Part shown: piece after piece, positions 9,156 to 15,561 of the stretch | Numbering within the stretch: position 1 is the stretch's first letter | How the letters are laid out: each line of letters opens with the position of its first letter | NCBI RefSeq assembly: GCF_003063415.1 | Contig: NZ_NESK01000011.1 | Location: 1-64,000 of the forward strand | Source of the DNA: Limnohabitans sp. 2KL-17 | GTDB lineage: Bacteria; Pseudomonadota; Gammaproteobacteria; Burkholderiales; Burkholderiaceae_C | Direction of reading: 5' to 3' | DNA: 64,000 nt | Notes under the pieces: model-generated | Told to the model about the DNA's origin: nothing | Database searches by the model: none | What the model saw: the letters and a program-made list of their open reading frames with translations, nothing else | Made by a program: the position numbers and the translations under genes

Positions 9156-10433
9156 ATGAACAACGCCAACTATTCCAGCCGTATCAGTGGATTTCATAAA
9201 AAATCTGTCGATGAGCGAATTGCGCTGATTGCCGACATGGCGGGCCTGAACGACACCGAGCGCGCCTTGATGGGCAACTCCGGCAACCTCGATCAGGAAA
9301 TCGGCAACCACATGATCGAGAACTTTCTGGGCACGATGACCATTCCCGTGGGCATTGCAACCAACATGAAGGTCGATGGTCGCGATGTGCTGGTGCCCAT
9401 GGCCACCGAAGAGTCCTCGGTGGTGGCGGCGGTCTGCAATGCGGCCCGCCAGTCTTATGACAATGGGGGCTTCATCACCTCGATGTCGGGCACGCGCATG
9501 ATCGCGCAGATTCAATTGGTGCAGGTGTCAGACCCGTACCACGCCCGAATGGCCATCCTGGAGCGCAAAGAAGACATTCGCCTGATTTGCGATGCCTGCG
9601 ACCCGATGCTCATCAAGCTGGGGGGCGGGTTCCGAGAGCTGGAGGTACGCGTGATTGATACGCTTTCAGGCCCCATGGTGATCACCCACATCATTGTGGA
9701 CACCCTGGATGCCATGGGGGCCAACGCGGTCAACACCATGGCTGAAAAACTGGCACCTTTCATTGCGCAGTGGACGGGTGGGCGCACCTACCTGCGCATC
9801 TTGTCCAACCTGGCGGACCATCGACTGGCCCGTGCGCGCTGTGTCTGGCGCAGCGAAGACATCGGGGGTGCAGACGTGCGTGATGGCATGTTGCTGGCGT
9901 ATCACTTTGCCGAAGCAGACCCCTACCGTGCAGCCACGCACAACAAGGGCATCATGAACGGCATCAGCGCCGTGGTGTTGGCCACAGGCAATGACACGCG
10001 TGCGGTTGAATCGGGCGCACACGCCTACGCCTCACGCCATGGGCGATACACCAGCCTGACCCGCTGGGAAGTCACCAACGAAGGCCACCTCGCCGGCTCG
10101 ATTGAAGTGCCCATGGCGGTTGGTTTGATTGGCGGCGCCACCAAGCTGCACCCCATGGCCAAGACCGCCTTGAAGATTCTCAATGTTCAATCGGCCAGTG
10201 AACTGGCCCGCATCATCGCTGCGGTCGGATTGGCACAAAACTTTGCCGCCATCAAGGCGTTGGCCACCACCGGCATCCAGAAGGGCCACATGTCCCTGCA
10301 CTCGCACAACATCGCCATGATGGCCGGTGCGGTGGGCCATGAGGTTGATCAACTGGCCCAAATTCTGGTGGCCAAAGGCATGGTCCGCTTGGATATCGCC
10401 GAAAAGGAACTGGCGCTCATTCGCGGCAGCTGA
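9156..10433 (+). CDS. mvaA: Hydroxymethylglutaryl-CoA reductase, class II
   Basis: Interconverts mevalonate and HMG-CoA. At 425 residues with ENFLGTMTIP (class II ENVIG-like motif), MATEESSVVAA (catalytic Glu), DAMGAN, NKGIMNGI (catalytic Lys), LATGNDTRAVE (catalytic Asp) and GHMSLHSHN (catalytic His near the C-terminus), it is complete and probably active. Class II enzymes in proteobacteria such as Pseudomonas mevalonii work in mevalonate breakdown. No HMG-CoA lyase (mvaB), transporter or isoprenoid mevalonate genes are adjacent. The preceding 80 bp may hold a transporter remnant, and the accessory STAND gene lies just downstream. Confidence 0.93.
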   Translation: MNNANYSSRISGFHKKSVDERIALIADMAGLNDTERALMGNSGNLDQEIGNHMIENFLGTMTIPVGIATNMKVDGRDVLVPMATEESSVVAAVCNAARQSYDNGGFITSMSGTRMIAQIQLVQVSDPYHARMAILERKEDIRLICDACDPMLIKLGGGFRELEVRVIDTLSGPMVITHIIVDTLDAMGANAVNTMAEKLAPFIAQWTGGRTYLRILSNLADHRLARARCVWRSEDIGGADVRDGMLLAYHFAEADPYRAATHNKGIMNGISAVVLATGNDTRAVESGAHAYASRHGRYTSLTRWEVTNEGHLAGSIEVPMAVGLIGGATKLHPMAKTALKILNVQSASELARIIAAVGLAQNFAAIKALATTGIQKGHMSLHSHNIAMMAGAVGHEVDQLAQILVAKGMVRLDIAEKELALIRGS

Positions 10434-10757
10434 GACATCCAGCAAATAACAGGCATCTGATAACAAAGTTTAGAGCTCGGCTTCTTCTAAAAAAGACGAA
10501 ATCGGGCCAAAAATCTTTGTCAAAGTGTCGAATTACAGCGCTGAGGATAGACAGACTCTCAATTAATTTGAGGGCAATGTTTAAAACAGCGTTGGTTTAC
10601 AAGGCAAATGGCTTGAGATCTAAGCAGGCCTGAGTCATTCAGTTTTATGACCGTTTGAGGCTGGGTGCGGTCTGTCAGATTTGCGAATCGAGAGGCTGCT
10701 CCCCGCGAAACGTGACGTTGACTGTTGACCAGGGCTTGCGGCGATGGCCCGCATGTA
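10434..10757. other. Non-coding flank between mvaA and the STAND gene
   Basis: About 320 bp without a credible gene. It is more AT-rich than the surroundings and contains the left arm of an inverted repeat (10458-10480). No clear terminator, promoter or RNA was recognised. Confidence 0.6.
10458..10480 (+). repeat. Left arm of inverted repeat flanking the STAND gene
   Basis: The arm begins TGATAACAAAGTTT and ends CTCGG. Its partner at 14878-14900 on the opposite strand matches at 20 of 23 positions. It starts 25 bp after the mvaA stop codon. Confidence 0.6.
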
Positions 10758-13700
10758 TTAGTCGAAGCGATCGCGCTCCTCGTTGATTTCTTCTCTTTGA
10801 ATTTCCCGGTCGAATTGTTCGATCTCGGTTTCTATCCATTGCGCGACCTGGAAATCGAATCCCGCTGTAAGCCAGCGCCGCAGGATGTCTCTCTGGTGCT
10901 TCAGATGTTGGCTCGTCGGACCTACCCATGATCCGGAGTGAAATGAGGCGCTTATCCCGGAACGTACGCCATCAATATGCCCATACCGTGTCAACAATTG
11001 CCGAGTCAGTAAGCCGCCCTCGTCGTCGAGCGTAGGAAGCGTCGCATGTGCGATCAAAGCAGCTCGACCGTCGGGGTCGGACTCGATCCAACCCAAAATG
11101 CTGACCTCCGGCAAGTTCGCAATGGGGCTGCGCTGCACTCCCTCCCTAAACGAACGGATGCCACCCTTCAGCCAGTTGTACACGTCGCTCCGCCATTTTG
11201 GCAATGTAGCCTCGAAGTGGTTTGCAGTGACCTGCCAGGCGCCTTCAGGGTCGATACTGACCAACTCATTGCTTAACGCTTCGACGTCATGGTCATAGCT
11301 CAGCTGGTATTGCTCGCCCATGGTAGTGAGGAGCGCATCAAGCAAGGGCGCTGCGAACTCAACATTGGATTTGACCAACCTTGAGCAAACGCGTTTCCAA
11401 TTAAACCCAAAGGATTGTCCTGGGTGTCGTAAAAGGGGAATCGCATGTCGTGCGACATCGAAGGCGAAGTCTGGGCCGCAGGGCATGGGTCGCTCCGACG
11501 ACATGGAACTCATCAACCCAATCAACAGCTGCAGAGCTTCCGGTATCTCTCGCTGTCGAATTAGCCTGAATAGGCGCTCTGCTTTTTCTGTTGGCACTGA
11601 ATCCAACGCCCTGCCGAACTGCAACGCCCCAAACAGCGTAGGCTCGATCCATTTTTTCTCAAGGGCATCGAGACAGCGGTTGAATGCGCTTTCGTTGTAG
11701 CCGGATCGCAAAGTCATCTCCGCGCCCAGGATAGCCGTATCGCTGCTGTTCAACATTTCTAGAAGCCACAACTCAAACTGCCCGAATGACTGTGCTTTGA
11801 TGCCAGTCAAATAGCCGTGCAGACAGGTGACGTTGCCGCAACTCCGAGCGATGTCTGTGAGCAAAGGAAACAGGACGCGCTGCACGTCGCTCGCAGCTAG
11901 TTGCTCCCCGAAATACAAAAGCGCCGGTCCATGACTCGATATGGTCAGAAGGTGAGAAATCTCACTGAGGCGATGCGGTTTCGCCGCGATTCGTTGCGCG
12001 AGCGCTGCAACCAGCGCCTTCGCATGGGAAGCCGGCCGATCACGCCGATCTCGATACTCTTCCTCCCACTCAAGCCGATCAACATCAAGGACGTATCTCT
12101 GGAAACGGCTGGTCAGATCCTGGCGCGTATACCGGCGGGCGAGACGCTTGATTCGAATCCCTATTTCACCGTGCTGCTCGTCCTCGCAATATTCCGTCCA
12201 GTGCCAAAAAAACTTGTTCAGCTGACTTGGGATCATGGCGCTGTCGGAGGCTAGTTTCTCCAGTACCTGCAGGGCAAGCTCTGTGCATGGTGGAGTGCGG
12301 ATCTGATGTTCAACTGCTTTGAGCAGCGCCGAACAGACTTGCGGTCGGAGGGCTGCAGGCCAAGCCGAAGACTCGTTGATCAGGGTTTGGAAGTACAAAA
12401 GGTGTGCCTGCCGCCATTCGCCGTAAGTTGATGGAATCCAAAGCTTGGCTCGCTCCTGTAGCCCCTGGTATTCCGGCCCCACAGTTCGAAAGCCCATACC
12501 GCGCGTGTCCAAGGTCGAGTCCAGTATCTTCAAACCGAGCAGACGTTCAGCATCGGTGCTTCCTCTCAGGAGCGCAAGCAAGGCCGGCAGCCTTTGCTCC
12601 GGACTCGCCTCGGTCGCAGCGGCTTCGGGACCAATGCGAAACAGGTTCACCAGTGTGCCAGTCGAATTATTGGAAAAGTCGGCGTTCTCATTGACAGCAA
12701 GCCGGGACAGCAGGCCTAAGGCCCGCACTGTTAGCAGCGGCCAAACAGCAATCTTCGCAAGTGCCCAGACGATGTTCTGGCGGTTTGACTTGAACTCCGC
12801 AAGATCGGCGTCAGGCCAGTTGCCGATCGTGCTCTCAAGCAGACGTAGGACAGCAGAGGAATTGGCCTCAGCGAGCGTCGACAGGAATTGCGATCCGGTA
12901 GACGAGGTCAGCATGTCGTGAGAGGAAAAGACGCCGTCTGGCTTAAGAATCTCGTCAACAACAAATGCTGTGTCTTTGCCGCCAGCGAATCTGAATTTGT
13001 TCAAAAACCAGGCATGGAGCGATGAAGGCATGGATTCGAAAGTGGCGACAAAGTCGAACCCGCGCCCATAGCGTGTCCAGAACTGTTTCCAAAGGACGAT
13101 GTGAAGCGCCTTGGGTACAAAAAACAGCGTCGTGCTGCCTTGCAGGACGCGTCGAGCCCGAAGACTCTGGACAATCTCTTGAAAGCGGGCCCAGCCGATC
13201 GTTGGATCAACCTTGTGAATCAACTGCGCGACGTAGTTAGCCTCATCTGATACGGGATCTTCAAATCCGAACCGGCTGAACAAGGCGAGGTGGTGAGCCA
13301 CACAGTCGACTTGTCGTGACGTCGCATCCTCTTGCGTGCCATATCCGTGCAAGAACCTGGTCCACAGCGGAACCGTCGCCGGCGGACGCAGCAAATCAGT
13401 GGGATTCGCATGAAGATTCTCTGCAACGGCATGTGCTACTCGTGGCGAGCCCTCGCAGATCGTGACCCAACGTTCAAGGCTCTGGGACTCTCCGATCCGG
13501 TCTGCCAAGATACTCCGGATGGTTTCGTCTGGAAGACGGGGGGCATACAGGCGGAGAATTTCGTCGTCATGACTTTCATAACGCCCATGATCAAGAGTGA
13601 CAAGTTTCATCGCGCCACAGAGGGTCTTCAGATGCCGCCAGACTTCAGACATCTCCGATTCGGATAGGTCATCGAGCACTAGTACGAGAGGCTTCGTCCA

Positions 13701-14573
13701 GCCGACCCGAAGCAGTTGCCTGAACAGCGCCGTCTGAACGAACTTGGAGCCGTGATACAAGTAGAGAACCGAGGGGGCAATATGCGGCGCCCTCAACGCC
13801 TCCAGGACCATGCGCGTCTTGCCTATGCCAGGCTCCCCTAGCACTCGAATATGCTTGGCATCGCCTTCGACGCCTGATCGAATCAGGTCGATCAGTTCAG
13901 TTTGAGCTGGCGCCGGCTTGAATGAACTGGCCATATGGGCATCGCGATCCCATTCGTCAAGTACCCAAGCCTCCTGAATAGAGTCATAGGTCAGCTGTGC
14001 CGCGATGCCAGGGTAACGCTCTGCAAAGTTCGACAGCTGGCTCGCACCCAACACGTCAACAAGGTTGCGATAGTCCGCGACACCTAAGGATTCGAGCACT
14101 GTGACAATTTGCTCGCAGGCGTCATTCCGTTGTTGGGGTGTGAGGTCGTGTCCCGTGCAGACGACGACATAGCGCCCCATTCTCTTGATCAGACGCGCCA
14201 CCTCCGGAAATAGCGTCCCTTTGCCGTTAACTAATTCGCCACGAATGGAACCGTTGGTCCAAGGCTTGAACGATGTACCGGACTTCAACTGTATCCCTGT
14301 CAAACCGGCAGCAAAGAAACAATCTGTTGGGATTTGAGTATTGGGTGGTACATCGATTTCGGCGTCGATGCCACCGTCTGCGACGGTCAGTCGGCTAGAA
14401 ATAGTGACGACGGACGGATTGAGCTTGGCGTAGTTTGACTCCGCTTTCAATATTCCACCCATAAGCTCTACAGCACGCTCGGCAGTGAGTGAAACGATCG
14501 TTGAAACAGGAACATGGATCAATTGGCTCACGTAGACGAACTCATTTGTAAATATTTTGGTATTTTCGTGCAA
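10758..14573 (-). CDS. Large STAND-type P-loop NTPase with N-terminal PD-(D/E)xK-like region; candidate antiphage protein
   Basis: The 1271-residue protein has three parts. Residues about 30-140 contain GGIDAEID (Asp70, Glu72) and GIQLKSG (Gln95-x-Lys97), the spacing of a Mrr/DUF4365-type PD-(D/E)xK nuclease core. Residues about 220-390 form an NTPase: GEPGIGKT (246-253, Walker A), LVLVLDD (296-302, Walker B) and EGSPRVA (374-380), like the GxP motif of STAND ATPases. Residues 400-1271 are long, helical and repeat-like, without a named motif, ending in a charged tail. Effector-NTPase-sensor is the plan of AVAST (Avs) defence proteins; function is inferred. The TTG start at 14573 lacks a ribosome site, so the start is uncertain. 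Sampled lines are lower in GC than neighbours, suggesting transfer. Confidence 0.8.
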   Translation of the reverse strand: MHENTKIFTNEFVYVSQLIHVPVSTIVSLTAERAVELMGGILKAESNYAKLNPSVVTISSRLTVADGGIDAEIDVPPNTQIPTDCFFAAGLTGIQLKSGTSFKPWTNGSIRGELVNGKGTLFPEVARLIKRMGRYVVVCTGHDLTPQQRNDACEQIVTVLESLGVADYRNLVDVLGASQLSNFAERYPGIAAQLTYDSIQEAWVLDEWDRDAHMASSFKPAPAQTELIDLIRSGVEGDAKHIRVLGEPGIGKTRMVLEALRAPHIAPSVLYLYHGSKFVQTALFRQLLRVGWTKPLVLVLDDLSESEMSEVWRHLKTLCGAMKLVTLDHGRYESHDDEILRLYAPRLPDETIRSILADRIGESQSLERWVTICEGSPRVAHAVAENLHANPTDLLRPPATVPLWTRFLHGYGTQEDATSRQVDCVAHHLALFSRFGFEDPVSDEANYVAQLIHKVDPTIGWARFQEIVQSLRARRVLQGSTTLFFVPKALHIVLWKQFWTRYGRGFDFVATFESMPSSLHAWFLNKFRFAGGKDTAFVVDEILKPDGVFSSHDMLTSSTGSQFLSTLAEANSSAVLRLLESTIGNWPDADLAEFKSNRQNIVWALAKIAVWPLLTVRALGLLSRLAVNENADFSNNSTGTLVNLFRIGPEAAATEASPEQRLPALLALLRGSTDAERLLGLKILDSTLDTRGMGFRTVGPEYQGLQERAKLWIPSTYGEWRQAHLLYFQTLINESSAWPAALRPQVCSALLKAVEHQIRTPPCTELALQVLEKLASDSAMIPSQLNKFFWHWTEYCEDEQHGEIGIRIKRLARRYTRQDLTSRFQRYVLDVDRLEWEEEYRDRRDRPASHAKALVAALAQRIAAKPHRLSEISHLLTISSHGPALLYFGEQLAASDVQRVLFPLLTDIARSCGNVTCLHGYLTGIKAQSFGQFELWLLEMLNSSDTAILGAEMTLRSGYNESAFNRCLDALEKKWIEPTLFGALQFGRALDSVPTEKAERLFRLIRQREIPEALQLLIGLMSSMSSERPMPCGPDFAFDVARHAIPLLRHPGQSFGFNWKRVCSRLVKSNVEFAAPLLDALLTTMGEQYQLSYDHDVEALSNELVSIDPEGAWQVTANHFEATLPKWRSDVYNWLKGGIRSFREGVQRSPIANLPEVSILGWIESDPDGRAALIAHATLPTLDDEGGLLTRQLLTRYGHIDGVRSGISASFHSGSWVGPTSQHLKHQRDILRRWLTAGFDFQVAQWIETEIEQFDREIQREEINEERDRFD

Positions 14574-14919
14574 TTTTTAAACACTAAAAAATTCATTCTT
14601 GCCTGACGATAGGATTCAGCATTCGTGTAGAAATTATGGCTGGTAAGCCCTAAGGGTGAGGGAACTAGCCGCTGACCTGGCAGGCCAGACCGAACTTGCA
14701 AGCGACAGGCCGGTTGGGGCAATTCCGGTCTCTTGCACAAACCCAGCGTAAGACTGCAATCGCTGCACAACCGACCCTCAATAACTAAAAAAGAGCAGAG
14801 AACGGCGGACCAATCCCTAGACTTCAATCAACTTGGAGGAGTTCATCCCGGAAAATCGAGACTAGTGCGACCCAAGTCCGAGTTCAAAACTTTGTTGTCA
14901 AGTCCCTTACCATCGAGGG
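14574..14919. other. Non-coding flank upstream of the STAND gene
   Basis: About 345 bp with AT-rich stretches near the STAND gene start and no convincing gene. A 99-codon minus-strand frame (14528-14827) has no family-like composition. An imperfect hairpin with AGACCG and CGGTCT arms lies around 14688-14732. The right arm of the flanking inverted repeat is at 14878-14900. Confidence 0.5.
14878..14900 (-). repeat. Right arm of inverted repeat flanking the STAND gene
   Basis: On the minus strand it begins TGACAACAAAGTTTT and ends CTCGG, pairing with 10458-10480 at 20 of 23 positions. It lies 19 bp before the next chromosomal gene. No matching target duplication was seen outside the two arms. 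Confidence 0.6.
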
Positions 14920-15561
14920 ATGCTGAAATACCAAACCATCCCCGTCACCCCCTTCCAGCAAAACTGTTCCCTGGTCTGGGACGATCAGACGCTTCAGGCT
15001 GCTGTGGTTGATCCGGGGGGCGACCTGGATTTGATTTTGGGCGCCGTGAAGCAACACGGCCTAAGCCTGGAGCAGATCTGGATCACCCATGGTCATCTGG
15101 ACCACGCCTCGGGCACGGCTGATCTGGCCGAACAACTGGGGGGCCTGCCCATCATCGGCCCGCACCCGGCCGACCAGTTCTGGATTGACGGTTTGCCGCA
15201 AGCGGCCTCGGCCTATGGTTTTCCGCCGGCTCGGGTTTTCAAGCCCACGCGTTGGCTGGCCGATGGCGACACCGTCACGCTGGGTGCGCACACCTTGCAG
15301 GTGCGCCACTGCCCGGGGCACACGCCTGGTCACGTGGTGTTTTATTCGCCGGAGATCAAACGTGCCTTTGTGGGGGATGTGCTGTTTGCAGGCAGCATTG
15401 GCCGAACCGACTTTCCGCAAGGCAACCACGACGATTTGATCGCCAGCATCACCCAGCGCCTGTGGCCCATGGGCAATGACACGGTGTTCATTCCTGGCCA
15501 TGGCCCCGAAAGCACCTTTGGCCGTGAACGCCAGTCCAACCCTTATGTCGGCGGCACCTGA
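14920..15561 (+). CDS. Metallo-beta-lactamase-fold hydrolase, glyoxalase II-like
   Basis: The 213-residue protein has ITHGHLDHASG (HxHxDH), HCPGHTPGHVV (third His), FVGDVLFAGSIGRTDFP (bridging Asp and the GRTD motif) and FIPGHGPEST (last His). This is the GloB-like single-domain group, shorter than true GloB because the C-terminal substrate domain is absent. It probably hydrolyses thioesters such as S-lactoylglutathione, though persulfide dioxygenases share the fold. The ATG at 14920 directly follows GAGGG, an unusually close ribosome site. The preceding 300 bp belong to the accessory segment, so its native promoter may be displaced. Confidence 0.9.
   Translation: MLKYQTIPVTPFQQNCSLVWDDQTLQAAVVDPGGDLDLILGAVKQHGLSLEQIWITHGHLDHASGTADLAEQLGGLPIIGPHPADQFWIDGLPQAASAYGFPPARVFKPTRWLADGDTVTLGAHTLQVRHCPGHTPGHVVFYSPEIKRAFVGDVLFAGSIGRTDFPQGNHDDLIASITQRLWPMGNDTVFIPGHGPESTFGRERQSNPYVGGT

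Follow-up and report, generated by a model that had tools for sequence, protein, structure and literature searches.

What is encoded by the long open reading frame (ORF) that covers positions 10758-14573, on the minus strand, of a 64,000-nucleotide stretch of contig NZ_NESK01000011.1 from Limnohabitans sp. 2KL-17 (hereafter the window, that is, the whole stretch analysed), and by what vehicle did this gene reach its place in the chromosome? Our answer, which we hold to be probable, is that the gene specifies a self-contained antiphage immune receptor, in which a predicted PD-(D/E)xK nuclease is joined to a STAND NTPase and a predicted HEAT-like sensor, and that it lies in a Tn7-like element which has no transposition genes and no other gene between its ends. 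A preliminary description of the sequence had recognized the outline of such a protein and proposed it as a candidate new antiphage protein; what it missed is that the gene is the sole one inside a Tn7-like element. In the following, G000 denotes the genome to which the window belongs, other G-numbers denote other genomes, and L-numbers denote loci taken from them.

Domain layout of the predicted protein

The longest frame opens at TTG 14573 and has the 1271 codons claimed in the preliminary description, which did not state the strand; the plus strand across the same interval is riddled with stops. A start further downstream is probable for the protein, since many close homologs among the matches listed have 1257-1258 amino acids and the relatives at L003, L004 and L080 have ATG at the position matching GTG 14531 of the window. 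We therefore place the STAND immune-type gene at 10758..14531 on the minus strand, with a probable GTG start at 14529-14531, the stop codon at 10758-10760 and a product of 1257 rather than 1271 amino acids. Residue numbers refer to this shorter form, unless the 1271 numbering, which is higher by 14, is mentioned. A scan for promoters and terminators gave no signal above that of shuffled sequences, the search against Rfam at gathering scores matched nothing in 10300-15100, and no tRNA genes were found within the window.

Conservation of the protein was examined in an alignment of the window protein with 35 homologs (n=36, with identity down to 27%), together with a structure model. At the N-terminus, residues ~9-180 (13992..14507, minus strand) make up a predicted PD-(D/E)xK nuclease domain, in which the putative nuclease set E31 (14439-14441), D56 (14364-14366) and Q81-x-K83 (14283-14291) has E31, D56, Q81 and K83 invariant in 36/36 sequences. 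The order of helices (H) and strands (E) in the model is H17-34, E42-44, E57-61, E76-83, H93-100, H109-116, E120-125, H132-148 and E158-161, so that an E...D...(E/Q)xK set falls on the helix/strand order that matches such a domain. The nuclease motif of the preliminary description is thus kept in part: its Asp70, Gln95 and Lys97 correspond to the invariant D56, Q81 and K83, while its Glu72 corresponds to E58, which is E in only 15/36 sequences and hence lies outside the nuclease core, the further acidic residue being E31. The structure matches listed include no nuclease chain, in a list that NTPase matches filled and with the N-terminal domain compared only within the whole model; the DUF4365/Mrr profiles of Pfam match none of the 36 sequences at E 0.01, a divergence at which profile misses are possible; and a sequence and profile search of the PDB gave nothing convincing.

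The following STAND NTPase core at residues ~200-380 (13392..13934, minus strand) is indicated by Pfam, by the alignment and by the model. Walker A (13815-13838), Walker B (13668-13685) and a downstream SPR motif (13440-13448) are all present on the minus strand, and G232, G235, G237, K238, T239, D287, S362, P363 and R364 are invariant in 36/36 sequences. The Walker A at 246-253 and the Walker B at ~296-302 named in the preliminary description (1271 numbering) are confirmed by this, and its GxP-like motif turns out to be GSPR at 375-378 in the same numbering. Pfam reports AAA_16 on the window protein at a sub-threshold score. The modelled core is NLR/Apaf-like and resembles, along with further ATPases of AAA type, those of Avs5, Apaf-1 and plant NLRs; EfAvs5 is ranked first and Avs4 is present among the best 50 structure matches, where other AAA-type ATPases tie within 1 Z, and RFC leads in Foldseek. 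The rest of the protein, residues 384-1257 (10761..13382, minus strand), is modelled as an all-helical HEAT/ARM-like sensor, with the last ~870 residues in HEAT-like helices and possibly a winged-helix-like segment at the start. The combination of nuclease motif, STAND NTPase and long helical sensor in one protein, as first suggested, is supported.

Element ends, insertion site and related elements

The gene takes up 85% of an insert of 4457 bp at 10451-14907, bounded by a 30-nt inverted repeat that is 80% complementary. As the preliminary description had said, the base composition is different here: the G+C content is 0.54 in the insert and 0.60-0.61 in the window flanks. The ends of the insert are homologous to those of Tn7-like elements in two congeneric genomes, G074 and G078. 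The left end (10451..10663, plus strand) aligns with the left end of G078 at 168/217 identical columns (77%, score 179) and with that of G074 at 164/216 (76%, score 164), the best of 200 shuffles being 25 in either case. For the right end (14756..14907, minus strand), the homology covers 14756-14900 and the tip extends to 14907; it aligns with an end segment of G078 at 117/151 identical columns (77%, score 113, best of 200 shuffles 24) and with G074 in a short alignment only (28/32 columns). Because the matching segment of G078 is the inner of two that bear repeats, the ends have been rearranged in one lineage.

Both ends carry terminal repeats that look like TnsB-type binding sites, at 10459..10480 (plus strand; 21/22 to the congeners' repeat) and 14878..14899 (minus strand; 20/22), which presumably resemble Tn7's own TnsB sites. 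Among 127,958 window positions, these two sites are the only ones with at least 15 matches to the repeat. A weak subterminal repeat at 10570..10591 (plus strand; 14/22) is possibly a second site, though 14 matches are reached at 7 of the 127,958 positions and are little proof alone. With at most one mismatch, the 22-nt core is found among 90 genomes of the genus only in G000 (two ends), G074 (three) and G078 (two). A DNA search with the left end matched 6 of these 90 genomes, namely G000 itself, G078 and G074 at length, and G101, G061 and G034 shortly, and it also picked up the right-end repeat of G074. TnsB-type repeats at both ends are thus homologous to those of an element bearing TnsA and TnsB, for the right end by comparison with G078 only. 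Their inverted pairing at both ends and the homologous ends in an element with TnsA, TnsB and TniQ also rule out integron attC sites. Near the close homologs L003-L007, no end repeats were found within ~500 bp and no exact core in the loci.

The insertion site can be delimited through G062, the closest relative there. On the left of the insert stands the gene of an HMG-CoA reductase (9156..10433, plus strand), and on the right that of an MBL-fold hydrolase (14920..15561, plus strand; Pfam Lactamase_B), against whose 5' end the insertion is positioned. In G062 the reductase gene directly precedes the hydrolase gene at a distance of ~25 bp, both proteins being 99% identical to those of the window, which is the empty site. 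This arrangement is found in G062 alone among the hydrolase loci of 29 relatives (L011-L039), and no match to the reductase was obtained in G074 and G078 by a search without positive control. A presumed 5-bp target duplication, the size made by Tn7, flanks the insert as TAACA at 10447..10451, which has the same letters as the empty site of G062 and shares its last base with the tip of the element (AGGCATCT), and as TACCA at 14908..14912; the two copies thus have one mismatch and one ambiguous base. Between the right copy and the start codon of the hydrolase there are 7 bp, and this spacing is the same in the window, G074 and G078, which indicates a fixed insertion position; in G078 the element has TATAA on either side, with 7 bp again separating the right-hand one from the start codon. 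A comparison of upstream sequences from 23 relatives found right-end sequence at the same position also in G027 and G061.

The elements that these end repeats mark out in G074 and G078 likewise adjoin the hydrolase gene. The element of G074 is ~23.5 kb long and encodes proteins matching the Tn7 TnsA (E 1.5e-9) and TnsB (E 3.9e-15) of solved structures, neither of them named by Pfam, as well as a TniB/TnsC-like AAA protein and a TniQ/TnsD protein. G078, where the two element ends lie on separate contigs, has TniQ/TnsD, a partial TnsC and a partial TnsB. Eight ORFs on the cargo side were scanned with PADLOC, giving matches in six and none for two: in G074 an AAA protein (PDC-S06, with a weaker match to PrrC), an Mrr-nSTAND3 protein (PDC-S73), a PDC-S57 family protein and an Mrr-like protein (PDC-S02, E 1.5e-10), and in G078 a 2051-aa protein with a partial match to Avs1b (E 1.2e-7) and a TIR protein (PDC-S35). 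The Mrr-nSTAND3 protein (L055 8559-10796) likewise joins a nuclease with a STAND NTPase and occupies the same insertion site in a congener, but it belongs to another STAND family, has 745 amino acids and matches the window protein only weakly and locally (23% over 150 columns).

Some further observations concern these relatives. The cargo pair of G078 (L057 8766-15754) consists of the 2051-aa protein, which is AAA/STAND-like, and a CAP12/Pycsar-type TIR protein. In G074 a second right end meets the left end across one common TATAA (L054 9394-9600; G074:C1 near 950400-950600), so that apparently two Tn7-like elements stand in tandem. G061 has left-end sequence at C66:5947-6025 (L092) and right-end sequence at the hydrolase site (L020), of the same family and on two contigs; its cargo side, read by eye, appears as a two-component system with no obvious defence gene.

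How did an element of such small size come to the site? The TnsA, TnsB, TnsC and TniQ of G074 have no match in the insert at E 10, which rules out an autonomous element. Either the TnsA/B/C and TniQ/TnsD of a full-size relative may have placed it in trans, or its own genes may have been lost after insertion. The latter is the most serious alternative, which we rate somewhat short of probable: the protein would still be of immune type, and the element would be a decayed full-size Tn7-like transposon instead of a mobile unit of one gene. It fits with G000 having no second pair of end repeats and no match to TnsB or TniQ (TnsA and TnsC were not searched for in G000 outside the window), with the imperfect target duplication, and with G027 and G061 (the latter 80% complete), where the site has right-end sequence but neither TnsB nor TniQ of the family was found. 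On the other hand, the conservation of both ends reaches almost to the tips, and within the 4.46 kb nothing matches TnsA, TnsB, TnsC or TniQ at E 10, even as a remnant.

If the element was instead mobile as a unit of ends and one gene, a wider and much more tentative idea may be considered, namely that Tn7-like transposons have transposase-free satellites, consisting of two short ends and one solo immune gene, which are delivered in trans to a fixed site upstream of the MBL hydrolase gene. Single defence genes would then be dealt like cards into a chromosomal slot. The known Tn7-like transposons with defence cargo, as described in PMC8649781, are alike in TnsB-type terminal repeats, in a fixed distance to the target gene and, in the congeners, in defence-type cargo, but the window insert differs from them in having 4.46 kb, one gene and no tnsA, tnsB, tnsC or tniQ. 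According to section 6 of that paper, the survey of Benler et al. in 2021 took tnsB as the starting point of its scans, which puts the present kind of element beyond its reach, and surveys anchored on tnsB would be blind to the whole class. Since the survey starts from the transposase gene, the reach of Tn7-like elements in spreading immunity would be undercounted if such elements are common. An element of ends and one gene also offers a concrete route for a solo immune gene to a clean chromosomal site. In the literature searched, including portions of PMC10761935 and PMC10719622, we found no account of a natural non-autonomous Tn7-like element, looser matches having been partly examined, nor one that links such elements, autonomous or not, with insertion at an MBL or glyoxalase gene.

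Family, distribution and probable function

The family itself is already known, contrary to the first proposal, and the window protein is, as judged by its sequence, a divergent branch of PD-Lambda-4_A. PADLOC matches it to this profile over residues 226-1006 (E 9.1e-28, 94.5 bits), the match being common to all 36 aligned sequences. Apart from the two models for PD-Lambda-4_A (PDLC03990/03991), no family model is listed at E up to 1, and none for Avs, so that membership in AVAST is not borne out by profile. The window protein is like component A over most of its length, with an N-terminal DGG(V/I)D...QxK and a GxxGxGKTR Walker A. It is 23% identical over 760 columns to L079, a strong A member from another genome of the same class (1018.9 bits to the profile), with DGG(V)D, QxK and Walker A in common. 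However, it differs from PD-Lambda-4 in standing alone inside a Tn7-like element and with regard to component B, whose model (PDLC03992) has no match in G000 (0/1) or in the other genomes with A-like genes (0/13), while it does match in the E. coli control. For this reason we file the gene as PD-Lambda-4_A-like and not as a PD-Lambda-4 system, of which B would be a required part to judge from PADLOC's A/B naming. This sizeable nuclease-STAND branch would, if active, do without the B partner, so that a test could be made with a single gene.

Among 5.8 billion proteins searched, 306 match at E <=0.001, and 116 of the best 120 of them, the window's own protein counted, cover at least 90% of the query; a second search from a cyanobacterial member gave 277. 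On the genome scale the gene is rare: apart from its own genome, just one of the 60 drawn has it (2/36 of the same genus in all, 0/24 of other families). The second carrier, G020, has it at a different place, with neither flanking gene near and a neighbour that reads by eye as gyrB. The view of a single accessory gene without metabolic partner, as had been supposed, is supported. Across the class, an A-like gene is present in 13 of 369 genomes drawn, that of the window among them. Five of the 12 other loci were taken and selected neighbours scanned at four, with a type I restriction endonuclease, SoFic and an HEC-06-like gene beside three; those of L078 gave no defence match. In contrast to those three, the 8 ORFs flanking the gene in the window have no PADLOC match. 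Distant homologs occur in 15 of 72,556 plasmid records (cyanobacterial, haloarchaeal and proteobacterial), three of them having one place that covers 80% of the query, and in none of 50,697 phage records. The haloarchaeal plasmid homologs H2-H5 have ~25% identity over 72-90% of the query, and the family thus crosses domains.

From the layout we infer antiphage activity and a mode of action by analogy. As long as no phage component is bound, the C-terminal solenoid would keep the protein inactive; binding would allow nucleotide exchange in the NTPase and its oligomerisation, in the manner of Avs, Apaf-1 and plant NLR proteins; and the clustered N-terminal nucleases would then cut DNA and bring the infection to a halt, for which the cell would probably pay with its life. 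PMC12931631 describes the Avs proteins as STAND proteins of three parts, in which the nuclease effectors (of Avs1-4) become active once terminase or portal is recognised. The window protein has the effector-STAND-sensor layout of Avs1-Avs5 and an NTPase core for which EfAvs5 ranks first among the structure matches listed, but differs in the missing Avs profile match and in the HEAT-like solenoid.

Would the target necessarily be a phage? An Avs-type, restriction-like sensor against plasmids or other mobile DNA is improbable, even if the STAND-nuclease layout leaves the target unfixed and the carrier, being mobile, may be in competition with other elements, for PD-Lambda-4 is attributed to phage selection in E. 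coli by a passage of PMC10952713 citing Vassallo et al. (2022); the name lambda-4 is absent from the main text of PMC9519451. It is very unlikely that the protein is a transcription regulator of STAND type or some other housekeeping ATPase. In favour there is a weak partial NCBIfam match to the LuxR-family AbsR2 (E 0.0085), but it reaches 14.9 bits against a cut-off of 850, and we reject a LuxR-type regulator; moreover, the nuclease residues are invariant, Pfam gives no DNA-binding output family at E up to 1, and the gene is as sparsely distributed as described above and absent from the site in G062. An antiphage receptor is our preferred reading of the protein.

Two kinds of neighbour deserve mention for the wider family. 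At L081 5002-10748 (G159), a PD-Lambda-4_A-like gene overlaps a DUF262/HEC-06-like gene by 4 bp, the latter being a possible alternative partner. In addition, Fic-type genes at L080 8045-9184 (G317) and L051 11984-12157 adjoin family members that are 57% and ~28% identical to the window's, respectively.

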